Below, one piece after another: positions 1 to 39,368 of a stretch of DNA of 40,206 bases; position 1 is the first letter of the stretch; every line of letters begins with the position of its first letter. The notes below the pieces were generated by a model. It saw only the letters and a list, made by a program, of their open reading frames with translations, ran no database searches and was not told the DNA's origin. This DNA is from Actinomycetota bacterium (lineage in GTDB: Bacteria; Actinomycetota; JAHEXW01; JAGVPG01): NCBI GenBank assembly GCA_020052375.1, contig JAGVPG010000026.1, positions 1 through 40,206 of the forward strand. Reading direction: 5' to 3'. The translations under genes were made by a program, and so were the position numbers.

Positions 1-66
1 AGATTCGCCATCCGTGAAGGCGGCAGGACTGTCGGAGCCGGAAGGATAACTAAGATCATTAAGTAG
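1..66 (+). CDS. tuf: Elongation factor Tu, C-terminal end (partial)
   Basis: The first 21 codons and stop encode RFAIREGGRTVGAGRITKII plus K, the highly conserved C-terminal strand of EF-Tu domain 3. EF-Tu delivers aminoacyl-tRNA to the ribosome. The 5' part lies outside the window. Position just upstream of rpsJ matches the common str-S10 arrangement (rpsL-rpsG-fusA-tuf then rpsJ). The TAG stop (64-66) lies within the first copy of a tandem TAGTGAG heptamer. Confidence 0.93.
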   Translation, partial: RFAIREGGRTVGAGRITKIIK

Positions 67-160
67 TGAGTAGTGAGTCGTACTTTGAAAGTGCGGATCC
101 TCTCGGATACAGGATGACGATTCACCCGACTTACGACTCACGGATCACGTTTCACGATGG
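64..160 (+). repeat. Heptamer arrays flanking an inverted repeat in the tuf-rpsJ gap
   Basis: The gap begins with two perfect TAGTGAG units (64-77) and ends with about six degenerate 7-nt units at 118-159 (CACGGAT, CACGTTT, CACGATG type). The segment GTGAGTCGTA (73-82) is a perfect inverted match to TACGACTCAC (132-141), so the two arrays could pair across a 49-nt loop. The middle (94-118) is, on the minus strand, a diverged relative of the GTCATCCTG...GGATC element at 3228-3252. A weak promoter-like TTGAAA (85-90) with 17-nt spacing to TACAGG (108-113) overlaps it. Confidence 0.7.
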
Positions 161-172
161 TATAGGGGTAAA

Positions 173-481
173 ATGGCGAACCAGAAGATACGTATAAAAC
201 TTAAAGCGTATGATCACGAGCTGATAGACCAGTCGGCAAAGAGGATAGTCGAGACGGCGAACAGGACGGGCGCACGGATATCGGGCCCGGTGCCGCTGCC
301 GACCGATCGCAGTACATACTGTGTGATAAGGTCGCCTCATAAGGACAAGGACTCAAGAGAGCACTTTGAGATCAGGACGCACAAACGGCTGATCGACATA
401 CTTGATCCAACTCCAAAGACGATCGACTCACTGATGAGGCTGGATCTTCCGGCCGGAGTGGATATCGAGATCAAGCTATAG
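173..481 (+). CDS. rpsJ: 30S ribosomal protein S10
   Basis: A 102-residue protein of normal S10 length, starting [19 protein letters not shown] and containing the typical GPVPLPT and [11 protein letters not shown] segments. It is a component of the 30S head and, in many bacteria, partner of NusB in antitermination. It is the first gene of the S10 cluster. The ATG follows AGGGGT (164-169) at short spacing. It is separated from tuf by a repeat-filled gap of about 106 nt and from rplC by 25 nt, so it could be transcribed from tuf or from a promoter in that gap. Confidence 0.98.
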
Positions 482-506
482 AGATTAAGGAACGGGATCT
501 TAAGAG

Positions 507-1142
507 ATGAAGGGCTTGCTTGGCAAGAAGATCGGCATGAGCCAAATATTCATGAAAAACGGACAGGTCGTACCGGTGACTCTGGTAGAGGCCGGTCCCT
601 GCTATGTTACACAGATAAAAAACGGGGAAACAGACGGTTATACGGCCGTTCAAATGGGTTTTGGCGGGGTAAAAGAGAAACGTTTAAACAAACCGGAACT
701 CGGACATCTCAATAAAGCCGGAGCTCCTTCTGTCAGATTTCTGGCGGAGATCAGAATGGACCAGACCGGAGACGTGAACGTCGGCCAGACTCTCAGCGTT
801 GGCGTGTTTGAACCGGGAGACATAGTGGATGTCACAGGCATAGCAAAAGGTAAGGGATTTCAGGGAGTCATCAAGCGCTGGGGATTTCACAGGCGTCCGA
901 TGACACACGGACACCACTACCATCGGGCCCCGGGTTCGATCGGTATGGCGGCGAGTCCGTCGAGGGTGCTCAAGGGAAAGAAAATGCCCGGCAGGATGGG
1001 CGGAGGACAGAAGACGGTATCGTCTCTCGAGGTCGTCCGCATTGAAGAGAAGTCGAATCTTATAGCTATAAAAGGAAACATACCAGGCCCCAAAGGCGGA
1101 TATGTGATCATAAAAGAAGCCAAGAAAAGTCAGGCGAGGTAA
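507..1142 (+). CDS. rplC: 50S ribosomal protein L3
   Basis: A 211-residue protein with the L3 start [15 protein letters not shown], the central [20 protein letters not shown] loop that reaches towards the peptidyl-transferase centre, and GRMGGGQKT. Length is normal. It binds 23S rRNA early in 50S assembly. Its TAA stop shares its last base with the rplD start (TAATG), indicating translational coupling. No strong Shine-Dalgarno is visible beyond GGAACGGG. Confidence 0.98.
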
Positions 1143-1771
1143 TGGCAGGCAAAGTACAAGTCCTTGATCTTAGCGGAAAAGGAACGGGAGAGATCGCTAT
1201 CAGCGATGACATCATGAAGGCGTCTGTCGATCCGTCACTGATCCACCAGGTGGTACGCGGTTATATGGCCGAACATAGACAAGGCAGCGCATCGACCAAG
1301 ACCAAGGGAGAAGTCAGAGGCGGTGGAGTAAAACCTTGGCGCCAGAAAGGTACAGGACGGGCCAGGGCCGGTAGCATCAGATCCCCCTTGTGGAATGGGG
1401 GAGGTACGGTCTTCGGGCCGAGACCCAGAAGTTTTTCGATAAACGTGCCTAAGAAGGCAAAGAAACAAGCTCTCCGTAATGTCGTAGGAGACAAGGTCAA
1501 AAGCGGTTCCGTGAAAGTGGTCAAGGATATCACGTGGGACAAGCCGAAGACAAAACAAGCAGTAAAGCTTATGAACGCGCTTAAGCTGGAAGGCAAGGTA
1601 TTGATGATGATAAAAGACGAGAAGGAGAGCGTCGTAAGATCATTCTTAAACCTGCCGGAGGTCAAGGTCGTCTCGACGGACCAGCTTAATGTCTATGACA
1701 TATTGGACAGCGACGATATATTGACGACCAAGAAGGCATTCGAGGCCTTGATCGAGGAGAGGCTGAAATGA
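1142..1771 (+). CDS. rplD: 50S ribosomal protein L4 (L4/L1e family)
   Basis: A 209-residue L4 with the conserved extended loop (VKPWRQKGTGRARAGSIRSP, about residues 63-83) that lines the exit tunnel, followed by GGGTVFGPRPRSF. In E. coli L4 is also the autogenous repressor of the S10 operon. Whether that applies here cannot be read from the sequence. It overlaps rplC by one base and rplW by four (ATGA). Confidence 0.98.
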   Translation: MAGKVQVLDLSGKGTGEIAISDDIMKASVDPSLIHQVVRGYMAEHRQGSASTKTKGEVRGGGVKPWRQKGTGRARAGSIRSPLWNGGGTVFGPRPRSFSINVPKKAKKQALRNVVGDKVKSGSVKVVKDITWDKPKTKQAVKLMNALKLEGKVLMMIKDEKESVVRSFLNLPEVKVVSTDQLNVYDILDSDDILTTKKAFEALIEERLK

Positions 1772-2055
1772 GAGACCCGCGAAGCGTCATCATCAAACCG
1801 GTAGTCTCGGAGAAAAGCTATCAACTGATAGAGTCCAACAAGTATGTCTTTCAAGTGGATCCGAGGGCCGGGAAAGAAGAGATCAAGGATGCTGTGGAGT
1901 CGATATTCAAGGTGCGGGTGGTCGGAGTCAACACCATGCATCGAGTAGGCAAGATAAAAAAGCAAGGACGCACCCAGGGCCGGACTTCGGCGATGAAGAA
2001 AGCCATCGTGACGCTGGCACAGGGTGACAAGATAGAGTTCTTTGAGAGTAAGTAG
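1768..2055 (+). CDS. rplW: 50S ribosomal protein L23
   Basis: A 95-residue protein of normal L23 length with the family start RDPRSVIIKPVVSEKSYQLI and the FKVRVVGVNTM segment. L23 sits at the tunnel exit and docks signal recognition particle and trigger factor. The start codon overlaps the rplD stop (ATGA). It is followed by a 28-nt gap that is entirely a 7-nt repeat array before rplB. Confidence 0.97.
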   Translation: MRDPRSVIIKPVVSEKSYQLIESNKYVFQVDPRAGKEEIKDAVESIFKVRVVGVNTMHRVGKIKKQGRTQGRTSAMKKAIVTLAQGDKIEFFESK

Positions 2056-2058
2056 ATA

Positions 2059-2086
2059 TTAGAAATTGGAGATTAGAGATTAGATG
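2059..2086 (+). repeat. Heptamer array containing the rplB start codon
   Basis: Four consecutive 7-nt units beginning TTAG or TTGG (2059-2065, 2066-2072, 2073-2079, 2080-2086). The fourth unit, TTAGATG, supplies the ATG of rplB (2084-2086). The only purine-rich stretches near that start are repeat units (TTGGAGA), so the array itself may provide the ribosome-binding sequence. Confidence 0.75.
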
Positions 2087-2914
2087 GCCGTTAAGAAGTA
2101 TAAGCCGATAACAAGCAGCCGTAGGTTTATGAGCACTTCTTCTTTTGAGGAAGTCACAAAGACCAAGCCCGAGAAGTCTTTGACTAAGTCATTGACCAAG
2201 AACGGGGGGCGTAATGTGAACGGACGGATAACAGTACGTCATCGTGGCGGAGGCCATAAGCGGAAATACCGCGAGATCGACTTCTTGAGGAACAAAGACG
2301 GGATCACAGCGACCGTAGCAGCCGTAGAGTACGATCCGAACAGATCGGCGAATATCGCTCTTCTCCATTATGTGGATGGCGATAAGAAGTACATTGTGGC
2401 GCCTGTCGGGCTTAGGGTCGGTGATTCCGTGATGTCAGGCGAAACGGCCGATATCAAGCCGGGCAATGCTTTGCCGCTAAAGAACATCCCGGTCGGTACG
2501 ACCATCCATAATATAGAACTTGCGCCGGGAAGGGGAGCGTCACTATGCCGATCGGCCGGTTGTGTCGCTCAGCTGGTCGCTAAGGAAGGCGACTATGGCC
2601 AGGTCAGATTGGCTTCGGGAGAGGTCAGGATGGTCAGCATCAAAGCAAGGGCAACGATAGGACAGGTAGGAAACCCGGAGCATTCGACCCTTACGATAGG
2701 AAAAGCAGGGCGCAAACGCTGGCTGGGTATAAGGCCGACGGTCCGGGGGACAGTCATGAACCCGGTCGACCATCCGCATGGGGGCGGAGAAGGCAAGAAC
2801 AAATCAGCAGGCCGTCATCCCGTGACTCCATGGGGCAAACCGACGCTAGGTTATAGGACTCGCAAGAAAAAGAATCCGTCGGACAAAATGATCGTCCGCG
2901 GAAGAAAGAGATAG
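2084..2914 (+). CDS. rplB: 50S ribosomal protein L2
   Basis: A 276-residue L2 of normal length. It contains [20 protein letters not shown] near residue 45 and the C-terminal peptidyl-transferase loop [16 protein letters not shown] (about residues 220-236), including the His equivalent to the conserved L2 histidine. It is required for subunit association and tRNA binding. Its ATG is the last three bases of a heptamer array. Downstream gap to rpsS is 12 nt. Confidence 0.98.
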
Positions 2915-2926
2915 GAGGGAATATCC

Positions 2927-3211
2927 TTGAGTAGGTCTTTGAAAAAAGGTCCTTATATAGACTCGAAGCTTCTGGAAAAAGTAGAGCAGGTCAAGGCGAG
3001 TGGTGCTAAGACTGTGATAAAGACCTGGGCAAGGAGTTCGACCATATTCCCGGATATGGTCGGCTTGACGGTAGCCATCCATAACGGTAAAAAACACGTG
3101 CCGATCTATATTACGGAAAGCATGGTCGGCCATAAACTTGGAGAGTTCGCTCCGACCCGTATCTTCAGAGGGCATTCGGGTAGGGGCGAGAAGAGTACGA
3201 CTGTCAAGTGA
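2927..3211 (+). CDS. rpsS: 30S ribosomal protein S19
   Basis: A 94-residue S19 ([50 protein letters not shown]). It lies in the 30S head next to S13. The start codon is TTG, chosen because AGGAGGG (2913-2919) stands 7 nt upstream and the family N-terminus begins there. One of twelve TTG starts in the window. Confidence 0.97.
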
Positions 3212-3227
3212 CAATGAGTGGAATGTG

Positions 3228-3280
3228 TCATCCTGAGCGAAGCGAAGGATCTACGGGAAACGAGAAACAGGAAGCAGGGG
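3228..3280 (+). repeat. Interspersed GTCATCCTGAGCG-type element plus heptamer array
   Basis: The 70-nt rpsS-rplV gap holds an element reading GTCATCCTGAGCGAAGCGAA followed by GGATC (3228-3252). A diverged copy lies on the opposite strand at 94-118, sharing both the GTCATCCTG and GGATC ends. It is directly followed by a 7-nt-period array of ACGGGAA type (3253-3259, 3260-3266, 3267-3273, 3274-3280). The last unit, GCAGGGG, also serves as the Shine-Dalgarno of rplV, whose ATG begins at 3282. Confidence 0.7.
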
Positions 3281-3281
3281 A

Positions 3282-3869
3282 ATGGAAGCTAAAGCTGTAG
3301 CTAAATATATAAGAGTGGCTCCCAGGAAAGCGCGGTTGGTCGTAGACCTTATCAAAGGCAAGACTACCGATGAGGCGGCGATCATCTTGCGTTTCACCAG
3401 GAGGGCGGCTTCCAAGTCTGTTCTGAAGACTTTGAACTCGGCTATCGCGAACGCGCAGAACAAAGGCGCAAGGCCCGGCGAGCTGGTAGTTTCGAATGCG
3501 TATGTGGATGAAGGCCCGACGCTTAAACGGTTCCGCCCGAGGGCTATGGGCAGGGCGGCACGTATTAGGAAGCGCACCAGTCATATAACAATATTGGTAA
3601 GTGAAACGCTGGTCGAGAAGGCGGAGACAAAAGCGGCAGCCGCAAAAGCAAAGGAAGTCAAAGAAGTCAAAGAAATCAAGGAAGTCAAAGGGAAACCAAA
3701 GACGAAAGAGAAACCGAAACTTAGGGAAAAGCTGATAACAAGGAAAAAGGGCGAACTTGAAGAGAAGAAAGAGACCAAAGCGGTGAAGAAGCCGGCGACA
3801 AAGAAACCGGTGGAGAAGAAGACGAAAAGCACCGCCAAGAAGGAGGATAAGAGTGGGTCAAAAGGTTAA
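3282..3869 (+). CDS. rplV: 50S ribosomal protein L22 with long Lys/Glu-rich C-terminal tail
   Basis: Residues 1-111 are a complete L22 ([14 protein letters not shown], the tunnel-lining hairpin with [20 protein letters not shown]). Bacterial L22 normally ends at about 110-115 residues. Here an 84-residue tail follows, rich in Lys, Glu, Thr and Ala, probably disordered, beginning with a Glu-Val-Lys tandem repeat (DNA 3653-3690). The tail ends by overlapping rpsC by 17 nt. The Shine-Dalgarno of rpsC (3841-3846) lies inside the tail. The tail is in frame with normal codon structure, so it is probably translated. Confidence 0.97.
3653..3690 (+). repeat. 9-nt tandem repeat (Glu-Val-Lys) in rplV
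   Basis: About four copies of a GAAGTCAAA-like 9-mer in the rplV reading frame encode [12 protein letters not shown]. Near-identical repeats occur in rpsC (4583-4660) and rpmD (9461-9494). Only codon-neutral or Val-to-Ile changes separate the units. Confidence 0.85.
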
Positions 3870-4956
3870 TCCATACGGGTTAAGACTGGGCATAATCAAT
3901 GATTGGCGCACTCGCTGGTATTCAGAGAAAGAGTACAGCCAGTATCTTAGCGAAGACATCAAGATACGTAGGTATCTTACAAATAAACTGTATCACGCGG
4001 GTATCTCCAAGATAGATATCGAGCGCACGGAGCAGCATGTCAAGATCGTGATATACGCAGGGCGTCCTGGTATAGTGATCGGCAAGAAGGGAAGCGAAGT
4101 CGACCGCTTGAGGTCAGATCTGGAGAAGATGACGGGTAAGAAGATCCGTATCGACATCCAAGAAGTGAGAAGCCCCGAGATAAACGCAGTTCTGATAGCG
4201 CAGAATGTAGCTCAGCAGCTGGAAAGCCGTGTCTCGTTCAGGAGGGCTATGAAAAAGGCGGTCAGCCAGGCACGACAAGCCGGCGTCAAAGGTGTGCGGA
4301 TCGCTTCAGCCGGACGTCTTGGAGGGGCTGAAATGGCACGGACCGAATGGTACCGCGAAGGGCGCGTGCCTCTTCACACTTTGAAAGCCGATATCGATTA
4401 TGGGGTCGCTGAGGCTAACACGAAATCCGGAAAGATCGGCGTCAAGGTATGGGTATATCTTGGCGACGTGCCTCTTAAAGGGAAAGCGATCAGGCGGGAG
4501 TTCTCGATGGAAAGCGCGGATGAGCTCGAGGCGGCGCGCCCGATAGTCAGGCCGAAAGTGAAAGTTAAGGAACAGGGAGCCAAAGAGGTCAAGAAGGTCG
4601 AGGAAGTCAAAGATATCAAGGAAATCAAGGAAGTTAAAGAAGTCAAAGAGGTCAAGGAAGAGCGGAAAACGGAAAAGGGAAAAGGGAAAGAAGAAGTACA
4701 AGAAAAAGCGAAGGAAGAAGTAAGGGCAGAAGCAAAGGAAGAGAAGAAAGCGAAACCGGCTGAGAAAGTAAAAGCGGCCGAGGATAAAAAGGAAAAGAAG
4801 CCGTCCAAGAAGGAAGAAGTGAAGACGGAGAAGGAAAAACCAAAAGCCAAACCGTCTGAGAAAAAGAAGGCAGCGACAAAAGTCAAGACAGAAACAAAGA
4901 CAGAAACAAAACCGAAGAAAGAGACAAAGACAACGGCAAAGAAGAAGGAAGCGTAG
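3853..4956 (+). CDS. rpsC: 30S ribosomal protein S3 with about 150-residue charged C-terminal extension
   Basis: Residues 1-215 are a full S3: [14 protein letters not shown], a type II KH domain with VIGKKG near residue 75, and the C-terminal [17 protein letters not shown] region. S3 forms part of the mRNA entry tunnel and helicase. The usual length is about 210-230 residues, but this protein has 367. Residues 216-367 are low-complexity Lys/Glu/Ala/Thr, beginning with a Glu-Val-Lys repeat and containing a 28-nt heptamer array (4662-4689). The GTG start follows AGGAGG (3841-3846) and overlaps rplV by 17 nt. Confidence 0.97.
4583..4660 (+). repeat. 9-nt tandem repeat (Glu-Val/Ile-Lys) in rpsC
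   Basis: Roughly eight degenerate copies of a GAAGTCAAG-type 9-mer in frame encode alternating EVK, EIK and DIK triplets. It is the longest of the three such arrays in ribosomal protein genes of the window and abuts a heptamer array on its 3' side. Confidence 0.85.
4662..4689 (+). repeat. Heptamer array of GCGGAAA type inside rpsC
   Basis: Four 7-nt units: GCGGAAA, ACGGAAA, then AGGGAAA twice. It is the same unit type as the intergenic arrays at 12634-12661 and 21657-21684. Because 28 is not a multiple of three, the units are read in different frames and encode a Lys/Glu/Gly/Thr stretch in the S3 tail. Confidence 0.75.
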
Positions 4957-4966
4957 GTACGGGTAG

Positions 4967-5380
4967 ATGCTGATACCTAAAAGGGTAAAGCACAGAAAGG
5001 TCCAGAGGGGCCGCATGAGGGGCAAAGCCGCAAGAGGCAACACGGTCAGCTTCGGCGACTACGGCCTGCAGGCGCTTGAACCCGGCTGGATAACAAACAG
5101 GCAGATAGAGGCGGCGCGTGTTGCCATTACAAGACATATGAAGAGAGGCGGCAAGGTCTGGATCAATATATTTCCGGACAAGCCGGCAACAAAAAAACCG
5201 GCGGAGACCAGAATGGGAAGCGGCAAAGGGGCACCGGAGTACTGGGTCGCAGTCGTAAAGCCCGGGCATGTCATGTTTGAACTCGCCGGGGTAGATGAAC
5301 CGGTCGCCAGAGAGGCGATGAGACTGGCTTCTCACAAGTTACCAATAAAGACGAAGTTCGCCACGCGAGCGGAGTTTTAA
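4967..5380 (+). CDS. rplP: 50S ribosomal protein L16
   Basis: A 137-residue L16 of normal length with [39 protein letters not shown] and the [18 protein letters not shown] segment near the peptidyl-transferase and 5S rRNA region. The gap from rpsC is 10 nt with only a weak Shine-Dalgarno, suggesting translational coupling to the extended S3 gene. No tail is present, unlike its two upstream neighbours. Confidence 0.98.
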
Positions 5381-5400
5381 CGGGAGAGTGTTTTGATCAA

Positions 5401-5610
5401 GTGAAACCATCGGAATTAAGAGTATTAACAGACGAAGAACTGACGAAAAAGCTGACTGAAGTAAGAGAAGAACTTTTCAACCTGAGGTTCCAGATGTCGG
5501 CTGCGCAGCTTGAGAACCCGAAAAGGATCCGCTGGGTTAGGCGCGAAATCGCCAGGATAGAGACCATACGCAGGGAAAGGGAGCTTAAAGATGTCGAAGC
5601 AGCCGGATAA
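5401..5610 (+). CDS. rpmC: 50S ribosomal protein L29
   Basis: A 69-residue helical-hairpin L29 ([38 protein letters not shown]). It lies at the tunnel exit beside L23. The start is GTG at 5401, preceded by GGGAG. The 3' end overlaps rpsQ by 20 nt. Confidence 0.97.
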
Positions 5611-5869
5611 TGCCCGTAAAGCGCGCCGGACCCAGGTGGGCCGCGTATTAAAGAATGCTTCTGACAAGACTATCGTCGTCGCAGTCGAGACAAAAGTGCA
5701 GCACGGTCTATACGGAAAGACCATCAAGAAGACGACGACGTTCACCGCTCACGATGAGAAGAACGAGACCAAGGTCGGGGACATGGTGGAGATCATGGAA
5801 ACGAGACCGTTCAGCAAGACTAAAAGATGGCGTTTGAACAGATTGCTAGAAAAGGTGGAGAAGGCGTGA
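5591..5869 (+). CDS. rpsQ: 30S ribosomal protein S17
   Basis: A 92-residue OB-fold S17 with [17 protein letters not shown] and [20 protein letters not shown]. It binds 16S rRNA early in assembly. ATG start overlaps the end of rpmC. Its TGA stop overlaps the GTG start of rplN (GTGA). Confidence 0.97.
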
Positions 5870-6234
5870 TTCAGCAGGAATCGAGACTAAGAGTCGCTGA
5901 TAACACCGGCGCCAAAGAGATACTCTGCATACGCGTACTTGGAGGAAGCAGAAGACGCTATGCACGGCTCGGCGACATCATCGTAGCGACCGTTAAGGAA
6001 TCGATCCCAAGGGGCGTTGTCAAAGAGGGTGATATAGTCAAGGCGGTAATCGTGCGGACCAAGAAAGAGTTCCGGCGCGGAGACGGCAGCTATATCAAAT
6101 TCGATGAGAACGCGGCCGTTATTATAGATGAACAGAAGAACCCGCGGGGCACAAGGATATTCGGCCCCGTCACAAGAGAGCTTAGAGACAAGAAATTCAT
6201 GAAGATCGTGTCGCTGGCTCCGGAGGTATTATAG
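5866..6234 (+). CDS. rplN: 50S ribosomal protein L14
   Basis: A 122-residue L14, exactly the usual length, when started at the GTG at 5866 ([20 protein letters not shown]). An upstream in-frame ATG at 5827 would add 13 residues encoded within rpsQ and has no family support. Conserved [20 protein letters not shown] and ENAAVIID segments are present. L14 forms inter-subunit bridges. Start overlaps rpsQ stop; stop directly abuts rplX. Confidence 0.97.
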
Positions 6235-6591
6235 ATGGGAACAAAGACAAAGCAACTTGTGCCGATGAAGTTCGGTATAAAAAAAGGTGACACCGTACAG
6301 ATAATGTCCGGCAAAGACGCTGGAAAGAAAGGGAAGGTATTGAAGTGCCTTCCGCAAGAACATCGGGTCATCGTTGAAGGATTGAACAGACTGAAGAAAC
6401 ACAGCCGTCCGACACAGAGAAACCCTCAGTCAGGCGGCATCATCGAGATAGAAGCCCCGGTCCACATCTCGAATATCATGCTCGTTTGCCCGAGTTGCGG
6501 ACAGACGTCCAGGTTGGGTTTCGAGAGGACCGACGACGGTAAAAGGCTACGCATATGTAAGAAATGTTCCGGGAAGATAGATAAAAAGTGA
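6235..6591 (+). CDS. rplX: 50S ribosomal protein L24
   Basis: A 118-residue KOW-domain L24 ([20 protein letters not shown]). It initiates 50S assembly by binding the 5' end of 23S rRNA. The C-terminus has CPSCG and CKKC pairs, as in many bacterial L24 proteins. The ATG at 6235 is chosen because GGAGGT (6222-6227) lies 7 nt upstream. A downstream in-frame Met at 6265 matches the shorter family start but lacks a visible ribosome-binding site. Confidence 0.96.
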
Positions 6592-6607
6592 TAAAGGATG
6601 GAATGTA

Positions 6608-7150
6608 ATGGCGCGGCTTAAAGAGACATATGATACAGAGATAATACCGGCCATGATGAAGGAATTCGGCTATAAAAACAAGATGCAGGTACCGCGTATT
6701 GAGAAAGTCGTCATCAATATCGGTGTGGCGGAAGCCAAGCAGGAAGCCAAAGCGATGGACGGCGCCGTCCGCGACCTGACGATCATCAGCGGGCAGAAAC
6801 CGATAGTTACGAAGGCGAAGAAGTCGATCGCCAACTTCAAACTACGGACGGGCATGTCGATCGGCTGCAAAGTCACCCTGCGCGGGCAGCGGATGTATGA
6901 GTTTCTGGACAGATTGCTCAATCTGGCTTTGCCGAGAGTAAGGGACTTCAAAGGCTTAAGGCCAAAATTCGACGGCGGAGGGAACTACACACTCGGCTTG
7001 CAGGAACAGCTTGTATTTCCGGAGATCGACTACGATCAAATAGACAAGATCAGGGGCATGAATATAACAGTCGTAACGACGGCCGGGAAAGTCGACGAAG
7101 CGCAGTATCTTTTAGCGCAAATCGGTTTTCCATTTAAGACACAAGTATAG
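6608..7150 (+). CDS. rplE: 50S ribosomal protein L5
   Basis: A 180-residue L5 of normal length: [38 protein letters not shown], the [20 protein letters not shown] motif and [11 protein letters not shown]. It binds 5S rRNA and contacts P-site tRNA. Sixteen nt separate it from rplX. Shine-Dalgarno AAAGGATGG. Confidence 0.98.
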
Positions 7151-7169
7151 AAGGGCTGGAGGAAAAGGT

Positions 7170-7355: not shown

Positions 7356-7403
7356 AGCCGTTTTAAACGACGTTCTGTTTAAGGTTTAGGAGGATAGAAG
7401 AAA

Positions 7404-7802: not shown

Positions 7803-7805
7803 ACA

Positions 7806-7833
7806 GCAAGAAGCAAGAAGCAAGAAGCAAGAA
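7806..7833 (+). repeat. Perfect heptamer array GCAAGAA x4 before rplF
   Basis: Four identical 7-nt units GCAAGAA starting three bases after the rpsH stop. The array makes up more than half of the 48-nt gap. The rplF Shine-Dalgarno GGAGAGG (7840-7846) and ATG (7851) follow. Confidence 0.9.
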
Positions 7834-7850
7834 GGATATGGAGAGGATAT

Positions 7851-8390: not shown

Positions 8391-8393
8391 GTA

Positions 8394-8419
8394 TGTAGCA
8401 GCCGACCTTCAGGTCGGCT
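8394..8419 (+). repeat. Hairpin repeat, ATGTAGC + GCCGACC/GGTCGGC, copy 1
   Basis: After a leading ATGTAGC, a perfect 9-bp stem AGCCGACCT (8400-8408) and AGGTCGGCT (8411-8419) closes a 2-nt loop between rplF and rplR. A second copy at 35967-35992 shares the ATGTAGC lead and an 8-bp stem. There is no T-run, so it is unlikely to be an intrinsic terminator; it sits inside an operon. RplR's Shine-Dalgarno follows it. Confidence 0.75.
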
Positions 8420-8433
8420 AAGGAAAGGGAGCA

Positions 8434-8787: not shown

Positions 8788-8796
8788 GGGGAGACT

Positions 8797-9294: not shown

Positions 9295-9545
9295 TGAAGC
9301 TAAAGATAACACAGACCAAGAGTCTTATAGGAAGAAAGCAAGACCAGCGCCGCACTGTCAAAGCGCTGGGCTTGAAGCGGATAAATGATTCCGTAGTAAA
9401 AGAAGATAGGCCCGAGATCCGTGGTATGGCGAATAAAGTCATACACCTGGTCAGAGTAGAAGAAGTCAAGGAAGTCAAGGAAGTCAAAGAGAAGAAACAG
9501 AAAGTTGTGAAGAAGGAGACAAAGGGTGGATCTAAGCCAGCTTAA
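9294..9545 (+). CDS. rpmD: 50S ribosomal protein L30 with charged C-terminal tail
   Basis: An 83-residue protein. Residues 1-56 are a normal L30 ([53 protein letters not shown]). L30 is usually about 60 residues; the extra 27 begin with [12 protein letters not shown], encoded by a 9-nt tandem repeat (9461-9494), and end Lys-rich. ATG at 9294 is preferred over the in-frame TTG three bases earlier because AGGAG (9281-9285) is 8 nt upstream and it forms a TGATG overlap. The tail overlaps rplO by 20 nt and carries its Shine-Dalgarno. Confidence 0.96.
9461..9494 (+). repeat. 9-nt tandem repeat (Glu-Val-Lys) in rpmD
   Basis: Three near-perfect GAAGTCAAG units in frame, encoding EVKEVKEVK at the junction between the L30 core and its tail. 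Same unit as in rplV and rpsC. Confidence 0.87.
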
Positions 9546-12633: not shown

Positions 12634-12661
12634 GCGGAAAGCGGAAAGAGGAAAGAGGCAA
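12634..12661 (+). repeat. Heptamer array of GCGGAAA type before infA
   Basis: Two GCGGAAA units followed by GAGGAAA and GAGGCAA, starting five bases after the map stop. They are purine-rich and may double as Shine-Dalgarno for infA (ATG 12668). Same unit type as 4662-4689 and 21657-21684. Confidence 0.85.
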
Positions 12662-12667
12662 GAAGAT

Positions 12668-13433: not shown

Positions 13434-13447
13434 GCTACTAGCTAGAT
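13434..13447 (+). repeat. Two heptamers (GCTACTA, GCTAGAT) in the rpsM-rpsK gap
   Basis: Two 7-nt units sharing GCTA, immediately before the rpsK Shine-Dalgarno. The same GCTA-beginning unit type forms a four-unit array at 36373-36400. Too short to be convincing on its own. Confidence 0.4.
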
Positions 13448-21653: not shown

Positions 21654-21656
21654 AAA

Positions 21657-21684
21657 ACGGAAAGCGGAAAGTGGAAAACGGAAA
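21657..21684 (+). repeat. Heptamer array of ACGGAAA/GCGGAAA type before nnr
   Basis: Four 7-nt units (ACGGAAA, GCGGAAA, GTGGAAA, ACGGAAA) with a partial fifth (GCAGGTC), filling nearly the whole 41-nt gap between glmS and the TTG of nnr. No other clear Shine-Dalgarno exists. Confidence 0.85.
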
Positions 21685-29312: not shown

Positions 29313-29315
29313 CGT

Positions 29316-30143: not shown

Positions 30144-30151
30144 TATAAGAC

Positions 30152-33302: not shown

Positions 33303-34870
33303 TGGACAAGATGCTTTCATTAATGCAAAAACAATACTCGACCATCAGTTATGTCTCCGGACCGCTTATATTCGTAGAGCGCGCGAAACATGTGGCTTAC
33401 GGCGAGATGGTGGACATAGAGCTTCCGAACGGGGAACGCAGGGCCGGCCAGGTGCTGGAAAGCGCCGGCGATATGGCCGTCGTCCAGGTGTTCGAGGGGA
33501 CGCAGGGGATCGATGTTGATAAGACGACGGTCAGCTTCCGCGATGAAGTCGCGAAGATCGACGTGTCGGTCGATCTTCTGGGGCGAGTCCTGAACGGCCG
33601 CGGCGAACCGATAGACGGCCGCGGCAGGATCCTTCCGGAAGACCGCCTGGAGATCACCGGATCGCCGTTGAACCCGGTATCCCGTGACGAACCCGCGGAT
33701 TTCATCCAGACAGGCATATCGGCCATTGACGGCCTGAATACGCTGGTCCGTGGACAGAAACTGCCTATCTTCTCCGGTTCCGGATTACCGGCGAACCAGT
33801 TGATCGCTCAGACGATCCGCCAGGCGCAGGTAAAAAGCGGGGAAGAGTTCGCGATAGTATTCGCGGCTCTTGGAATATCTCACCGCGAGGCATCGTTCTT
33901 CATCAACGATTTCGAGAAGAGCGGCGCTCTTGAACGCGTCGTCTTCTTTATCAACCTTGCCGATGACCCGACGATCGAACGGATAATCACACCGAGGTGT
34001 GCCCTTACGGTTGCCGAATACCTGGCGTTCAAGTGGGACATGCAGGTCCTCGTTATCCTTAGCGATATGACCAACTACTGCGAGGCCCTACGGGAGATCT
34101 CGACCGCGCGGGAAGAAGTGCCGGGCAGACGCGGTTATCCCGGTTATATGTATACCGACCTCGCGACGATCTACGAACGGGCCGGTAGGATCAAGGACAA
34201 AAAGGGCTCGATCACACAGTTGATACTTCTGACTATGCCTGACGATGACATAACCCATCCGATACCTGACCTTACCGGTTATATAACGGAAGGGCAGATA
34301 GTCCTTGGCAGGCACTTGAACCGGCGCGGTATATACCCGCCGATCGACGTACTTCCGTGCCTGTCCCGTCTGATGAATCTGGGGATCGGCGCCGACAAGA
34401 CACGCGAGGACCATCGGAACGTCGCCGACCAGCTTTACGCTTCATACGCGCAAGGCCGTGACCTTAGGCGGCTGGTCTCGATCATCGGAGAGGAAGCGTT
34501 GTCCGAAGCCGACCGTAAATATCTTAAGTTTGCCGATGATTTCGAGTCGCGGTTCATCTCGCAGGGGGACAGTAACCGGGATATCTCAGAGACCATGGAT
34601 ATCGCGTGGGAACTCCTGTCCAGTCTTCCGAGAGAGGAACTTAAGAGGATCAAGGATGTCTTCATCGACAAGTATCTGCCACGTATCGAAGAGTCTGGCG
34701 GCGAGGAAGGCGAGATGGGAGAGGCCGGGGAGTCGGAAGCTGAATCCGGGATGCCTCAAGGCGGCAACGATTTCACTCCGATGATGAAGGATCTGGAGCC
34801 GAATGACGTGGAAACGCTAGAGTCGGTACAGTCGAACGGTGGCACGAACGAACCGGTAATAAGGGAGTAG
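33302..34870 (+). CDS. ntpB: V-type ATP synthase subunit B, with acidic C-terminal tail
   Basis: A 522-residue non-catalytic subunit. The start is ATG 33302 ([12 protein letters not shown]); the upstream open frame to 33077 is only a shadow of ntpA. It has [37 protein letters not shown] in place of a P-loop (about residue 157), [20 protein letters not shown] and [17 protein letters not shown]. The family usually has 455-475 residues. Here about 55 extra residues rich in Glu, Gly, Ser and Asn ([20 protein letters not shown] onwards) follow the core. Confidence 0.97.
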
Positions 34871-34873
34871 ACG

Positions 34874-35542
34874 TTGGAGGAAGCCAATCCTACCAGGACT
34901 GAACTGCTGGCTAAAAAGGCGCAGATCGAACTGGCTCAACAAGGTCGCGATCTGCTGAAAGAAAAAAGAGATGCCCTGATCGTAGAGTTCATGGCGGTCA
35001 TGGACCGGGTCGTCCGGTCGAGCCAGAAACTCGAACAGATCTCGAATGAAGCCCAGTACGCGCTGACAGTCGCCAAAGCGGTAGATGGTTCTGTCGCAGT
35101 CAGGTCGGCTTCGTTCGCGACGGGCGGGGAAGTGAGAGTCGACGTCCGCGGTTCGTACATCATGGGCGTTCCGGTCCCGGAGATCACCAAGAAGAGCGTA
35201 AAGAGGACCCTGGTGACAAGGGGCTATAGCTTGACCGGGATGAGCAGCCGGATCGATGAGACAGCCGAGTGTTTCGAAGAAGAACTCGATATAATCCTGG
35301 ACATCGCGGCGATCGAGACTAGACTACGCCGCTTAGGCGAGGAGATCGCCAAGACGAGAAGGCGCGTAAATGCGCTGGATAACATCATGCTTCCGACACT
35401 GAAGGAACAAGTCCGTTACATACAGATGATCCTTGAGGAAAGAGCCAGAGAAGATCTCTTCAGACTCAAGAAAGTCAAAAAAGCGATCGAGAAGAGGAAA
35501 AGAGCTCAAGAAGCTGCTAAAAAGTCGACAGTACCTTGTTGA
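34874..35542 (+). CDS. ntpD: V-type ATP synthase subunit D
   Basis: A 222-residue central-shaft coiled coil: PTRTELLAKKAQIELAQQGR DLLKEKRDAL at the N-terminus, GVPVPEITKK in the middle and ETRLRRLGEEIAKTRRRVNA LDNIMLP at the C-terminal helix, the classic subunit D ends. TTG start at 34874 with AAGGGAG upstream. The last 26 nt overlap the end of a convergent minus-strand gene. Confidence 0.96.
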   Translation: MEEANPTRTELLAKKAQIELAQQGRDLLKEKRDALIVEFMAVMDRVVRSSQKLEQISNEAQYALTVAKAVDGSVAVRSASFATGGEVRVDVRGSYIMGVPVPEITKKSVKRTLVTRGYSLTGMSSRIDETAECFEEELDIILDIAAIETRLRRLGEEIAKTRRRVNALDNIMLPTLKEQVRYIQMILEERAREDLFRLKKVKKAIEKRKRAQEAAKKSTVPC

Positions 35543-35849
35543 TCTCGTTGAATCCCTGATGTCCCGGTTTCTCGTTGTTGACGATCTGATCGCCGATCCT
35601 AATAACCTTCAATACGACGGCTAGTTTGATCGAGCTGAAAGAGATCTCATCCCAGTCCGTACGTCTGTGTGTAGCCCATGTCTCGCCGAGAACCCATCTT
35701 AAGACCTCGATCTCGTGTAGAGACAACTCCTTCCACGAATCGGATAACCTCTGACGGATCTTCTCTATTGCGCGCTCTACCGCTTTTTCCTGCTGGATGT
35801 GATAAGCGCGTATTCCGATCTCTTCGTCCGGCATGTCGACCCTGGACAT
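35517..35849 (-). CDS. Hypothetical protein, only minus-strand gene
   Basis: A 110-residue, probably cytoplasmic protein that I do not recognise: MSRVDMPDEEIGIRAYHIQQ start, a charged helical region (VERAIEKIRQRLSDSWKELS), LHEIEVLRWVLGETWATHRR and FSSIKLAVVLKVIRIGDQIV. The ATG at 35849 is preferred over a GTG 30 nt upstream because a GAGGGGGG ribosome-binding sequence lies about 6 nt before it. A well-formed promoter lies upstream on the same strand. Its 3' end overlaps ntpD convergently by 26 nt. Amino-acid composition looks like a real protein rather than an antisense shadow. Confidence 0.75.
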   Translation of the reverse strand: MSRVDMPDEEIGIRAYHIQQEKAVERAIEKIRQRLSDSWKELSLHEIEVLRWVLGETWATHRRTDWDEISFSSIKLAVVLKVIRIGDQIVNNEKPGHQGFNEINKVLSTF

Positions 35850-35891
35850 TCTTGACCCCCCTCTCGTGACAAAAAGCACGTTCTTTCCTTA

Positions 35892-35920
35892 ATTCTATGA
35901 TTAATGAGGCAAAATGTAAA
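35892..35920 (-). promoter_or_regulatory. Promoter of the minus-strand hypothetical gene
   Basis: Reading the minus strand: TTTACA (35920-35915), a 17-nt spacer and TAGAAT (35897-35892), about 43 nt before the ATG at 35849. Spacing and both hexamers fit a housekeeping sigma-70-type promoter. Confidence 0.55.
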
Positions 35921-35924
35921 CGTG

Positions 35925-35933
35925 TGATACAAT
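35925..35933 (+). promoter_or_regulatory. Candidate extended -10 promoter toward the fmdB-like gene
   Basis: TGATACAAT forms a TGN-extended -10 (TACAAT 35928-35933) with no good -35 box, about 80 nt before the fmdB-like ATG. It is divergent from, and within 5 nt of, the minus-strand promoter, so one regulator could affect both. Confidence 0.4.
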
Positions 35934-35966
35934 AAAAATTGTGAGCATTGAATAGGAACGGATAAA

Positions 35967-35992
35967 TGTAGCCGCCGACCTTTAGGTCGGCT
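35967..35992 (+). repeat. Hairpin repeat, ATGTAGC + GCCGACC/GGTCGGC, copy 2
   Basis: After a leading ATGTAGC, an 8-bp stem GCCGACCT (35974-35981) and AGGTCGGC (35984-35991) closes on a TT loop. Second copy of the element at 8394-8419, 27.6 kb away, same orientation, with a two-base shorter stem. It lies in the 5' leader of the fmdB-like gene. Confidence 0.75.
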
Positions 35993-36012
35993 CCCTAAAA
36001 CGGTGAACGTTG

Positions 36013-36237
36013 ATGCCTGTCTATGAGTATGAGTGCAAGAAATGTCTACATAAGTTCGAGTATCTGGTGAGGTCGTCATCGGATAAGCCTGTATGCCCGA
36101 AATGTAAGAGCAAAAGCCTGGACAAGATGTTCTCCGTCTTCGGGGCCAAGACTAAAAGTTCGGATGGCTCCACATCGTCGGTCGGCGGTTCCGGTTGCAC
36201 CTCCTGCGCCGGCGGCTCCTGCAACACCTGCCATTAA
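36013..36237 (+). CDS. FmdB-type zinc-ribbon protein
   Basis: A 74-residue FmdB/YhfA-like small protein. MPVYEYECKKCLHKFEYLVR and DKPVCPKCKSKSLDKMFSVF give the two CXXC pairs of the zinc ribbon; a Gly/Ser-rich C-terminus ends CTSCAGGSCNTCH. The role of this common family is unproven, with a regulatory role suggested. ATG at 36013 is chosen as MPVYEY is the usual start; a TTG precedes it by three bases. Confidence 0.93.
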   Translation: MPVYEYECKKCLHKFEYLVRSSSDKPVCPKCKSKSLDKMFSVFGAKTKSSDGSTSSVGGSGCTSCAGGSCNTCH

Positions 36238-36243
36238 CCCTTA

Positions 36244-36273
36244 TTGCCAGTATCACCTCATTTAGTATAGAAT
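36244..36273 (+). promoter_or_regulatory. Candidate promoter upstream of the multihaem cytochrome gene
   Basis: TTGCCA (36244-36249) followed by TATAGA (16-nt spacing) or TAGAAT (18-nt spacing, 36268-36273) in the 176-nt gap after the fmdB-like gene. It would give a leader of about 130 nt that contains the two repeats below. Confidence 0.4.
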
Positions 36274-36310
36274 TTGAGTGATTTAGTGTGAGAAATAAGT
36301 TACGAGTCAG

Positions 36311-36400
36311 TACCCCCACCTAAATCCTCCCCCTTAATGGGGGAGGAATCAAAGGAGGGGGTGGTTAAAGGGGCTACGAGCCACTGGCTACAAGCTATTT
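36311..36400 (+). repeat. CCTCCCCC hairpin element and GCTA heptamer array before the cytochrome gene
   Basis: A 9-bp stem TCCTCCCCC (36325-36333) and GGGGGAGGA (36339-36347) with loop TTAAT is flanked by CCCCCACC (36313-36320) and GGAGGGGGTGG (36354-36364). It is followed by four 7-nt units beginning GCTA or GCCA (36373-36400). No T-run follows the hairpin, so it does not look like a terminator. Confidence 0.75.
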
Positions 36401-36413
36401 TTAAGGGGTGAAG

Positions 36414-37052
36414 ATGGCGAAGAAGAAAGAGCCGGAAGAGCCTAAGAAAGAGAAGAAGACCAAGAAAGCAAAAGAAGAGAAGCCGAAGAAGAAAAGGCAT
36501 CTGTGGCGGTGGGTCCTTGGTTTTATCATCCTCTTCATAATCGCTTTCATCCCGTATTATTACACCGCGTACCCTGCGTCTTGTACCAAATGCCACTCGA
36601 TGGACGATTACTATACAAGCTGGAAGAAGTCTCTTCATGGCGAGGACGAGATAGTCTGCAGCGAATGCCATGTCAGACCGGGATATTTTGCTTTTTTCAC
36701 ATATCGCATCGGATTCTACCGCGAGATCTTCGCTTCGGCGCTTGACTTGAAATTGTCTCCTTGGGGGGCGACAGCGCCCGGGGAGTCTTCATGTACGCGC
36801 GACGGCTGCCATTCGTTCAACCGGCTGACTTCACGGACAGGCGAGCTTAAGATCGATCACAAGAAACACAGCAAACGCGTCAAATGCCGGACGTGCCACG
36901 CGGGGATCGTACATCCCAACGTCAGAGGGATAGGCCTGAATACACCACCCAGGAAACAGTGTTTCGTGTGTCATCAAAAAGAGATCAAGAAGTGCGACTT
37001 CTGCCATATGACGAAATATAAGCCGGGGACAAAACCGAAGACTCCTCATTAA
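36414..37052 (+). CDS. Membrane-anchored multihaem cytochrome c, NapC/NirT-like
   Basis: A 212-residue protein: Lys/Glu-rich cytoplasmic N-terminus (1-30), one transmembrane helix (about 31-50), then an extracytoplasmic domain with haem c sites CTKCH (57-61), CSECH (82-86), an unusual CX4CH (127-133, CTRDGCH), CRTCH (158-162), CFVCH (183-187) and CDFCH (194-198): five standard sites plus one expanded, so up to six haems. The anchor and first two haems (CTKCHSMDDYYTSW, SLHGEDEIVCSECH) recall NapC/NirT quinol dehydrogenases, suggesting electron transfer from menaquinol. No terminal reductase is nearby. ATG 36414 is chosen over GTG 36408 by AAGGGG spacing. Confidence 0.88.
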   Translation: MAKKKEPEEPKKEKKTKKAKEEKPKKKRHLWRWVLGFIILFIIAFIPYYYTAYPASCTKCHSMDDYYTSWKKSLHGEDEIVCSECHVRPGYFAFFTYRIGFYREIFASALDLKLSPWGATAPGESSCTRDGCHSFNRLTSRTGELKIDHKKHSKRVKCRTCHAGIVHPNVRGIGLNTPPRKQCFVCHQKEIKKCDFCHMTKYKPGTKPKTPH

Positions 37053-37061
37053 TAAGACAAG

Positions 37062-37664
37062 ATGTCTGAAGCATTAAAAGAACTGTACGCACAGCATTCT
37101 GACTGCACGGGTTGCTCTTTGTCCAAGAGCGCGAATAACGTCGTCTTCGGATTCGGCAACGAGTCGTCGGACGTAGTGTTCGTCGGGGAGGCTCCCGGTT
37201 ATCACGAAGACAAGGAAGGCAAGCCGTTCGTCGGCGCTGCGGGGCAGCTTCTTACAAACCTGCTGGCATCCATCGGCATGAAGAGGGAAGACATATATAT
37301 AACCAATGTCTTGAAATGCCGGCCGCCGGGCAACCGCGATCCCCTGCCTGAAGAGATAGAAGCCTGCAAACCGCTGCTTATGAAACAGATCGATATAATC
37401 GCGCCGAAGGTGGTCGTCACTTTGGGCAGTTTTGCCGCCAGGGTGATCCTCGGGAAGGTTATGCCGATGTCCAAGATCCACGGACAACCTGTCAAGACAG
37501 ACGGGTATCTTGTTTTTCCGACATACCACCCTGCGGCGGCGCTTTATGCGCGCACTACGATGACTTCACTCGAAGACGACTTTAAAGCCCTTAAAGAGCT
37601 TCTGGATAGCGGTGTGCCTCATGTCCGTGAGGAAGCCAAGACAGAACAGCTCGGCTTGTTTTAG
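37062..37664 (+). CDS. Uracil-DNA glycosylase, family 4 (iron-sulfur)
   Basis: A 200-residue family-4 UDG removing uracil from DNA. Fe-S cysteines C15 and C18 (CTGC), C86 (VLKCRPPGNRDP) and C102 (IEACKPLL). Active-site motif GEAPGYHEDKEGKPFVGAAG and C-terminal TYHPAA. It ends EQLGLF, matching the QL[S/D]LF beta-clamp-binding consensus. Nine nt downstream of the cytochrome gene. Confidence 0.97.
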   Translation: MSEALKELYAQHSDCTGCSLSKSANNVVFGFGNESSDVVFVGEAPGYHEDKEGKPFVGAAGQLLTNLLASIGMKREDIYITNVLKCRPPGNRDPLPEEIEACKPLLMKQIDIIAPKVVVTLGSFAARVILGKVMPMSKIHGQPVKTDGYLVFPTYHPAAALYARTTMTSLEDDFKALKELLDSGVPHVREEAKTEQLGLF

Positions 37665-37679
37665 AAATCAAACAAAGTG

Positions 37680-38159
37680 ATGATCAACCGCACGTTAGAA
37701 TCTGGATCTCCAGCAGAGACTATGAAGTTCGCCGCTGAACTAGCCAAGATGGTGAAACAAGGGGACGTCCTAGCGCTCACAGGCGAACTAGGCGCCGGTA
37801 AGACCTGTTTTGTCAAAGGCCTGGCTAACGAGCTGGGTGTAAAAGAGACGGTCACCAGCCCTACATTCGCTCTTCTCAAGACTTATCATGGCCTTATGGA
37901 TCTTTATCATTTGGACCTTTACCGTCTCGACAGGATAGAGGACTTGTTGGATATCGGAATCGAAGATTATCTGCCGGGAGACGGGATAACCGTGATCGAG
38001 TGGGGAGACAAAGCGGGAGACCTGCTACCTGAAGATACGCTGTTCATAGAATTTAGACAAGGTAGCACGGACGACCAACGATCGATCACGGTCAAAGCGC
38101 GAGGACGCGAATGGACGGAGAGGATGGGGCGTTTTAACTATGATGGTCCTAGGGTTTGA
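37680..38159 (+). CDS. tsaE: tRNA t6A biosynthesis ATPase TsaE
   Basis: A 159-residue TsaE: P-loop GELGAGKTCFVKGLANELG (about residues 35-53), VTSPTFALLKTYHG and LYHLDLYRLDRIEDLLDIGI, VIEWGDKAGDLLPED. It works with TsaB and TsaD to attach threonylcarbamoyl to A37 of ANN-reading tRNAs. ATG 37680 or GTG 37677 are both possible, without a clear Shine-Dalgarno. Overlaps tsaB by 20 nt. Confidence 0.97.
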   Translation: MINRTLESGSPAETMKFAAELAKMVKQGDVLALTGELGAGKTCFVKGLANELGVKETVTSPTFALLKTYHGLMDLYHLDLYRLDRIEDLLDIGIEDYLPGDGITVIEWGDKAGDLLPEDTLFIEFRQGSTDDQRSITVKARGREWTERMGRFNYDGPRV

Positions 38160-38841
38160 CACGGCGACGCCGGTCACGACGATCGGCATCTCATCGGACA
38201 AAGAGCTGGTCGACGCCACGTCGTTCTTAAGCGATAAAACGCAGACCGAGCAGCTTATGCCTGCTTTAGATGCCATGCTGAAAAAAGCAGGGCTCACTAT
38301 ACATGACATCGAAGGATTAGCCGTCGGCCTGGGCCCCGGGCTTTTTACGTCTTCGAGGATCGGTGTCATGACGGCGAAAAGTCTGGCTTATGCTTTAGAA
38401 GTCCCGATCGTTGGCATATCATCACTGGATACAATAGCTCGTGGGGCTGCTGATCTTTCGGAGCGCGTGGTCAGTGTCATCGACGCCAGGCGGCGGGAGG
38501 TGTTTGTCGCCACATATGACACAGCGGGCGGCAAGCTTGACAGGACAATGCAGCCGGCTGTGATGTCGCCTCAAGATCTGAACAATGTCCTACAAGAACT
38601 TAAAAAGCCGGTCATCCTGGCAGGCAACGGAGCCGTCGTCTATCGCGAAAAGCTCGAGGATATCCTGCCCGAAGGATGTAGCATAGCACCTGACAAGCAA
38701 GCATTTCCGGATGCAGCGCATCTACTAGGGTTGGCGGCCGACAGGTTCGAGGCCGGCGAGACTGACGACTTAAACCGTTTCGTCCCGATATATATAAGGC
38801 ACGCGGATGCCAAGGTCTTTAAGACTAAGCGTGATCGATGA
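38140..38841 (+). CDS. tsaB: tRNA t6A biosynthesis protein TsaB
   Basis: A 233-residue ASKHA-fold protein, inactive paralogue and dimer partner of TsaD. LGFDTATPVTTIGISS start, QTEQLMPALDAMLKKAGLTI, VGLGPGLFTSSRIGVMTAKS, VVSVIDARRREVFVATYD. Variation from the common GPGSFTGLR to GPGLFTSSR is noted. The start overlaps tsaE; an ATG three bases on is an alternative. The 3' end overlaps rimI (ATGA). Confidence 0.97.
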   Translation: MMVLGFDTATPVTTIGISSDKELVDATSFLSDKTQTEQLMPALDAMLKKAGLTIHDIEGLAVGLGPGLFTSSRIGVMTAKSLAYALEVPIVGISSLDTIARGAADLSERVVSVIDARRREVFVATYDTAGGKLDRTMQPAVMSPQDLNNVLQELKKPVILAGNGAVVYREKLEDILPEGCSIAPDKQAFPDAAHLLGLAADRFEAGETDDLNRFVPIYIRHADAKVFKTKRDR

Positions 38842-39344
38842 AGATAGATATACGGATCAGCATCATGAGGATCGAGGACCTGGATGAGGTCTATGAGATC
38901 GAGCAAAAGATATACCCGCAACCCTGGAGCTTAAACATCTTCCGGAGCGAGCTCGAGAGGCCCGACAAGCGAGTCTATCTGGTAGCCAGGTCGGAAGGGA
39001 CGATCGTAGCGTATGCCGGTCTGATGATCGTCGACGGCGAAGGACATATAACGAATCTTGCCATAGACATCCCGTTCAGGAAGAAGTCGATCGGAACGAT
39101 GATGACGCTCCGGCTGATCGAGATGGCGAGGCTGAAGAAAGTCCACTGGTTGACGCTCGAGGTGCGGGAATCCAATAAAGCGGCCCAGAATCTATATAAG
39201 AAGTTCGGATTCAGGTCGATCGGGACTAGAAAAGGGTACTATTCCGATGGAGAAAACGCGCTCATCATGTGGACTAACGATATAGCATCGAAAGAGTATG
39301 GAGAGTTGTTGGAGAAAGTGAAAGAAGAGCTGGTGGGGAAGTGA
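38838..39344 (+). CDS. rimI: Ribosomal-protein-alanine N-acetyltransferase-like (GNAT)
   Basis: A 168-residue GNAT acetyltransferase: MRIEDLDEVYEIEQKIYPQP WSLNIFRSEL, NLAIDIPFRKKSIGTMMTL (acetyl-CoA loop), LEVRESNKAAQNLYKKFGF, RKGYYSDGENALIM. RimI homologues acetylate the N-terminus of S18; substrate here is inferred from family and from the conserved tsaE-tsaB-rimI-tsaD order. Its stop codon lies in the first copy of a GTGAACA repeat. Confidence 0.95.
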   Translation: MKIDIRISIMRIEDLDEVYEIEQKIYPQPWSLNIFRSELERPDKRVYLVARSEGTIVAYAGLMIVDGEGHITNLAIDIPFRKKSIGTMMTLRLIEMARLKKVHWLTLEVRESNKAAQNLYKKFGFRSIGTRKGYYSDGENALIMWTNDIASKEYGELLEKVKEELVGK

Positions 39345-39368
39345 ACAGTGAACAGTGAACAGTGAACA
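39341..39368 (+). repeat. Perfect heptamer array GTGAACA x4 before tsaD
   Basis: Four identical GTGAACA units. The first includes the rimI TGA stop (39342-39344), the last ends 19 nt before the tsaD GTG. The array is more than half of the rimI-tsaD gap. Confidence 0.92.

Follow-up and report, generated by a model that had tools for sequence, protein, structure and literature searches.

The window considered here, a 40,206-nt stretch of DNA from an Actinomycetota bacterium, is one contig (C14) of a 35-contig draft genome (G000), of which 1,638,637 bases were scanned. It starts with the 3' end of tuf, followed by a ribosomal protein operon, glmS, ATP synthase genes and an acetyltransferase gene, and dispersed along it are short arrays of tandem 7-nt units. 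An earlier reading of the sequence, referred to below as the original prediction, listed eleven such sites. Six or seven of these are secure arrays, six of them reaching 17/21 lag-7 matches within extended bounds, and a further pair, 64-77 (7/7 matches) and 118-159 (21/35), is real as the two arms of one inverted element; 13434-13447, at 4/7, is at chance level and no array by itself, nor is 36373-36400 an array alone. The features, with lag-7 matches in brackets, are as follows:

62..160, + strand: GTGAGT-family inverted-pair element in the tuf/rpsJ gap, with arms at 62-79 (TAGTGAG twice) and 118-159 (CGACTCA-like, reversed) and a predicted hairpin.
About 75-101, + strand: inner core of the 62..160 element, GTGAGTCGTACTTTGAAAGTGCGGATC; core and arms recur at seven dispersed loci, with one further, tuf-linked copy on contig C13.
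2053..2084, + strand: GAGATTA-family array occupying the entire space between two genes (1768-2055 and 2084-2914), with the stop codon of the upstream gene in register with the units (16/21 over 2059-2086; best bounds 2053-2084).
3253..3280, + strand: degenerate array ACGGGAA ACGAGAA ACAGGAA GCAGGGG (15/21), immediately preceded by the palindrome TCATCCTGAGCGAAGCGAAGGATCT at 3228-3252.
4663..4689, + strand: GCGGAAA-family array within rpsC, in the C-terminal tail of S3 and not in a gap, adjoining in-frame 9-nt repeats at 4574-4660 (19/21 over 4662-4689).
7805..7834, + strand: GCAAGAA-family four-unit array upstream of rplF, its unit found at 15 genomic arrays (21/21 over 7806-7833).
12634..12663, + strand: GCGGAAA-family array after an M24 peptidase (methionine aminopeptidase-like) gene (19/21 over 12634-12661).
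21654..21684, + strand: GCGGAAA-family array right behind the glmS stop codon (17/21 over 21657-21684).
36373..36400, + strand: weak TAGC-family-like run GCTACGA GCCACTG GCTACAA GCTATTT (12/21), not above chance alone.
39340..39368, + strand: four-unit array of the GTGAACA family that overlaps the stop codon of the acetyltransferase gene (38838-39344), with the fixed family start, A followed by GTGAAC (21/21 over 39341-39368).

Arrays were found across the genome by Tandem Repeats Finder and a lag-match scan, with an array threshold of at least 17/21 lag matches and gene calls from a simple script of our own; thresholds were chosen by the analyst. At this threshold the genome holds 116 arrays of period 7, 22 of period 8 and 41 of period 9, compared with 0-8 at control periods 4-6 and 10-13 (4, 1, 7, 1 and 0 for periods 4, 5, 6, 10 and 11). 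Scored at 18/21 on a 1.15 Mb sample, an order-5 Markov control gave none at any period versus 70 real arrays at period 7. Among intergenic sites of at least 16/21, lag 7 accounts for 126, lag 8 for 22, lag 9 for 28, and lags 4, 5, 6 and 10-13 for 0-5; short perfect runs in gaps likewise show an excess at lag 7 that is weaker at 8 and 9 and absent at 4-6 and 10-13. Non-coding DNA makes up 11.7% of the genome by our gene caller, yet it contains 85 of the 116 arrays. The median copy number is 4.1, and of the 91 strong arrays, 72 contain 3 or 4 whole units. Tandem short units are thus present beyond chance, as in a slippage microsatellite, and the prediction of a sharp peak at period 7 and about four copies, enriched in gaps, is borne out; the outcome named in advance as its disproof, no excess of period 7 over neighbouring periods relative to randomised sequence, did not occur (116 versus 0-41 at other periods and 0 in the Markov control).

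The original prediction further held that the unit differs at each site and that the sites are not copies of one mobile element, and neither claim survives the whole-genome comparison. Two arrays share a heptamer, with rotation and strand disregarded, in 5.0% of pairs versus 0.09% for random intergenic heptamers, a 54-fold difference, and the 5.0% stays the same after nearby arrays are merged. Arrays grown locally would have near-random units, so this sharing argues against a locus-specific origin. About seven families, obtained by clustering followed by grouping by hand, account for 90 of the 116 arrays (GTGAACA 19, GTGAGTM 19, GCAAGAA 15, GCGGAAA 14, TAGCNNG 11, GAAGGMT 7 and GAGATTA 5), with 26 others; the small number of families, their fixed-phase ends, the conserved core of one family and the inverted pairing of about 30% all speak against the second claim. 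Octamer (TAGGGAAG-like) and nonamer (GTCAAGGAN-like) families are also present. The C-terminal tails of L22, S3 and L30 (window 3649-3690, 4574-4660 and 9454-9493) contain 9-nt repeats in frame (GAAGTCAAG-like, encoding KEV/VKE runs), and related nonamers are found elsewhere in intergenic inverted pairs.

The ends of the arrays are fixed in phase, with p values that are generous as the end phases for testing were picked after the data had been seen: GTGAACA arrays, read in unit orientation, start with A followed by GTGAAC in 16 of 19 (p 1e-8) and mostly comprise four units; for GCAAGAA arrays the start is A(A)GCAAG and the end GAAG, with a fixed end in 10 of 15 (p 1e-5); GTGAGTC arrays have the fixed end GTGAGTCG in 14 of 19 (p 5e-8), about half running on into GGGTRA-type sequence; and compared with simulated slippage arrays, whose phases are near-uniform, five of six ends tested gave p values of 1e-8 to 6e-4, the sixth giving 0.006. 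Variant units recur at the same array position 27 times versus 14.4 when permuted (p 0.0025), and a 32-nt match is 100% identical between the unlinked positions C16:14445 and C24:52283. A slippage microsatellite would draw its unit from the local sequence and end in any phase, which is not the pattern seen in either the 54-fold sharing or the ends. Fixed ends and ordered variants point to the copying of a defined element, which would explain the conserved copy number noted in the original prediction.

Arrays are also paired. An inverted partner (at least 15/21, within 200 nt) is present for 29 of 96 intergenic arrays versus 2.8% for random gene-end flanks, and for 8 of 18 nonamer arrays versus 8.3% in the control. 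Such pairs fold into long predicted hairpins, a result obtained without a shuffle control and expected from complementarity; single heptamer arrays are by inspection not self-complementary, and the window has no match to known structured RNA families in Rfam 15 at the gathering score. Local arm-to-arm copying by quasipalindrome correction was rejected as a source of the pairs, since the arms of one pair are no more alike than the arms of other pairs in the family. Pairing extends beyond this genome: in a set of 80 ribosomal loci, mostly from Firmicutes, 11 of the 24 arrays have an inverted partner versus 2.1% in the control, and in contigs of a viral collection the figures are 32 of 79 for those fetched by GTGAACA and 14 of 44 for those fetched by a scrambled heptamer, with controls of 7.5% and 8.9%. 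The idea of GTGAACA as a globally favoured heptamer was dismissed, the scrambled unit being about equally common in viral contigs (15 vs 11 stretches).

In the GTGAGT family, sequence between the arms is shared as well. At seven dispersed loci (C4, C10, C12, C14, with three more on C35), the arms enclose GTCGTGCTTTGAAAGCACGGATCC-like and ACGATTTACCC-like sequence, and an extra copy on C13 has the same tuf flank as C14. Positions 1-165 of the window and of C13 start with the same tuf 3' end and GTGAGT element (one mismatch) and then diverge, so the element is common to duplicated tuf copies. Terminal inverted repeats around a core at several loci were seen for this family only, as in a miniature inverted-repeat transposable element (MITE). 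A DNA search across 297 genomes of the phylum gave one other weak match only, of 27 nt.

Comparison with relatives indicates where the arrays are absent. A genome of the same order and another family (G001) is collinear over the ribosomal operon and lacks the arrays in the orthologous gaps: the tuf-rpsJ gap is 106 nt in the window vs 15 nt in G001, the gap before rplV (the 3253..3280 site) 70 vs 18 nt, the gap before rplF 48 vs 20 nt, and the counterpart of the 2053..2084 gap is repeat-free at 25 nt. In samples of about 330 kb from each of G001 and G002, hardly any period-7 excess is left after masked runs are discounted, and G001 does carry one long GTGAGCC array elsewhere. The pattern GTGARYV, three times in tandem, recurs at multiple loci in G000 and in three species belonging to another genus of the phylum (g61), where GTGAAC heptamers are embedded in a dispersed repeat whose flanks are conserved (TTAATCT..ATATAATTAC, heptamers, GTAAGAGTGTAACCAATGTCTGCGATTAATAC). 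An orthologous gap in g61 varies by ~80-100 nt among the three species with flanking DNA 92-93% identical; at another g61 locus the array is nearly the same in two species. The g61 heptamer repeat was seen in L282, L284, L286 (G072) and L289-L293, three copies having ~300 nt in common, which are possibly near-intact MITE copies. These findings are the strongest direct evidence that the repeats spread as an element, seen in g61 rather than in the species of the window. Similar heptamer arrays are present in unrelated genomes, and in Desulfotomaculaceae/Peptococcaceae (L101, L114, L119 and L139) they occur in and around ribosomal operons, some of them as inverted pairs whose arms are near-perfect (20/21).

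The arrays had been described as placed at ribosomal operon junctions, whereas they occur genome-wide. Of 96 arrays outside open reading frames (ORFs), 78 lie in gaps between co-directional genes, where the unit strand as named is the mRNA strand in 46 cases vs 11 (p 3e-6), and arrays frequently begin at or overlap a stop codon. All-frame stop codons were considered as a reason for period 7 and rejected, as GCAAGAA and GCGGAAA arrays by inspection contain no stop. A further 20 of the 116 arrays are within ORFs. Antisense GTGAGTC arrays encode DSRLTTHDS-like peptides in a phosphohexomutase and elsewhere; the phosphohexomutase loop corresponds to a 7-residue gap in the solved homologue 1tuo, with the homologue in G001 shorter by about six residues. 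The shorter homologues indicate that arrays also occur in ORFs where the protein tolerates a loop. The gene with the DSRLTTHDS loop is at C5:31155-32609, and a short partial paralogue with an identical array is 20 kb away at C5:52960-53445.

Other dispersed repeats share this genome. A GTAG-type repetitive extragenic palindromic (REP) sequence (GTAGCNGCCGACCTTYAGGTCGGC) is present at 8398-8418 and 35971-35991 of the window and in about 75 copies in the genome, and a Y1 transposase at C2:16502-16819, similar to the REP-associated tyrosine transposases (RAYTs), is flanked by inverted GTAG-REP copies (C2:16396-16950). Another dispersed palindrome, CCTCCCCCTTAANGGGGGAGG within GTACCCCCACC..GGAGGGGGT, is found at 36310-36365 and at many loci. 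Spread of the arrays by means of the palindrome TCATCCTGAGCGAAGCGAAGGATCT was rejected, since the 1.15 Mb sample holds about six convincing copies, only some of them adjoining arrays. Palindromic repeats occur in 17 of 48 array-bearing gaps longer than 80 nt and in 69 of 423 others, a modest association, and in 0 of 21 array-bearing gaps of 40-80 nt.

In analyzing this information, the arrays are probably copies of several families of short (~30 bp) dispersed repeats with heptamer-array arms, non-autonomous and resembling either MITEs or REPs and the bacterial interspersed mosaic elements (BIMEs). Each element would have defined ends and about four 7-nt units in tandem, and would occur singly or as a convergent inverted pair around a spacer of ~10-130 nt; the pair could fold as single-stranded DNA or RNA into a long hairpin whose arms are the heptamer arrays, comparable to paired REPs as BIMEs or to the terminal inverted repeats of MITEs. 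Such elements may have spread as non-autonomous mobile or copied elements, with 7-nt slippage later gaining or losing units, while selection would purge copies that break genes or block translation, leaving survivors in gaps with the AG-rich strand mostly in mRNA. The families, the fixed ends, the inverted pairing, the absence from the orthologous gaps of the relative and the heptamer embedded in the g61 dispersed repeat were observed directly. We infer transposition or copying as the spreading process, and the same applies to any cellular effect. Several observations weigh against this interpretation. About 70% of intergenic arrays have no detected inverted partner; outside the GTGAGT family the copies in this genome have no evident common sequence apart from the array; no gene between same-family inverted arrays fitted a transposase by size and position, those genes being unannotated; no target-site duplication or empty site was shown within the window's own species; adjoining units in one array sometimes drift between families, which is better explained by slippage; and the 46:11 sense bias suggests RNA-level constraint.

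Slippage in situ is the first rival, in which the polymerase or repair of this lineage favours 7-nt slips and tolerant gaps grow neutral arrays. In its favor are the sharp period 7, the excess of short runs, the frequent position at or over stop codons and the gradients of unit change within arrays, and heptamers are reported as the most abundant long simple sequence repeat class in most genomes, with a polymerase footprint proposed (PMC4679880, PMC4692102) and the excess in bacteria ascribed to polymerase slippage (Mrazek 2007, as cited in those two papers). It predicts neither the family structure with its 54-fold sharing nor fixed-phase ends, inverted partners or a shared core, and same-order relatives lack the period-7 excess; we consider it unlikely as the whole explanation. 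The local 7-nt duplication mechanism offered in the original prediction cannot by itself account for shared units and inverted pairs. Alternatively, the arrays could be functional sites at which a protein binds RNA or DNA through four iterated 7-nt half-sites, selected near gene starts and ends to tune translation or mRNA stability. This is in keeping with the transcription-following unit strand, the concentration in co-directional gaps and comparable proposals for TAACTGA (PMC4679880) and the Geobacter paired sites (PMC2700814), and is quite unlikely given several unrelated unit families in one genome, the arrays within ORFs and the lack of conservation at G001 orthologous gaps. Selection on leader RNA, also offered earlier, may still act and has the orientation bias in its favor; the bias could reflect either purging of antisense copies or a positive role. 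Chance or an assembly artefact might draw on the 35-contig draft state and on purine-rich gaps, which raise random matches, but is extremely improbable: it was already refuted by the lag comparison, with flat neighbouring lags, no arrays in the composition-matched control and like arrays in unrelated genomes.

Dispersed repeats of the preferred kind have close precedents, and the statement that no similar family had been described was mistaken, as four-unit intergenic heptamers, inverted pairs and heptamers in ribosomal operons are all published (PMC4692102, PMC2700814, PMC4679880). The heptamers GGGAATC of Xanthomonas and GGGGA(C/T)T of Nostoc/Anabaena commonly have four units, are 89-93% intergenic and lie near ORFs, with about 70-75 convergent inverted pairs per Xanthomonas genome (PMC4692102). 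The heptamer unit, the four copies, the intergenic placement and the inverted pairs are alike; those genomes differ in having one G-rich family each, interpreted as G-quadruplex, whereas this genome has several families mostly without G tracts, and GTGAACA, GTGAGTC, GCAAGAA and GCGGAAA contain no GGG, where a G-quadruplex heptamer calls for a run of at least three G in each unit. Geobacter metallireducens has 49 four-heptamer H4 elements and "global regulator binding sites" of 7-, 8- and 8/9-nt tandem units, mostly paired on opposite strands at variable spacing (PMC2700814). It is thus alike in carrying several paired families of 7-9 nt units in one genome; its units differ (MTYCTGA, GTTGCTYN, TCTCCGTS and GGACCGG), and some elements are at a fixed distance from insertion sequence elements, which was not seen here. 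TAACTGA of marine Beggiatoaceae is intergenic, in 2-6 copies and forward orientation, also within ribosomal protein operons (PMC4679880); unlike here, it is a single unit that ends a few nucleotides from the start codon, and pairs are rare (one).

In the P6b stems of the Nostoc trnL intron, the hairpin arms are 7-nt repeats, TDNGATT or NNTGAGT, swapped as whole types (PMC4476775); NNTGAGT fits the GTGAGTN unit of this genome and, with the cyanobacterial short tandemly repeated repetitive sequences, offers a parallel, at one structured intron site versus dispersed elements here. GTAG-REPs are 20-40 bp, lie between co-directional genes, are often oppositely paired and have several families per genome (PMC3733652). 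As short dispersed intergenic repeats that are often inversely paired, the arrays agree with REPs and BIMEs in placement, size and pairing, but a lone heptamer array is itself no palindrome, and the Y1 transposase on C2 is flanked by GTAG-REPs, not by heptamer arrays. The origin of the repeats was established in none of the Xanthomonas, Geobacter, Beggiatoa and Nostoc papers; the general kind is known and unexplained, and what is new here is the presence of many families in one genome and the measurement of fixed ends. Tentatively, and with considerable doubt, the heptamers of Xanthomonas, Nostoc, Geobacter, Beggiatoa, Desulfotomaculaceae/Peptococcaceae and this lineage might form one unrecognised class, dispersed hairpins with iterated arms of 7 (or 8/9) nt, spread by shared machinery that measures or copies ~7-nt steps while the unit sequence is free to change. 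If fixed ends, family structure and inverted partners were general, much intergenic bacterial "microsatellite" DNA would be a class of dispersed element.

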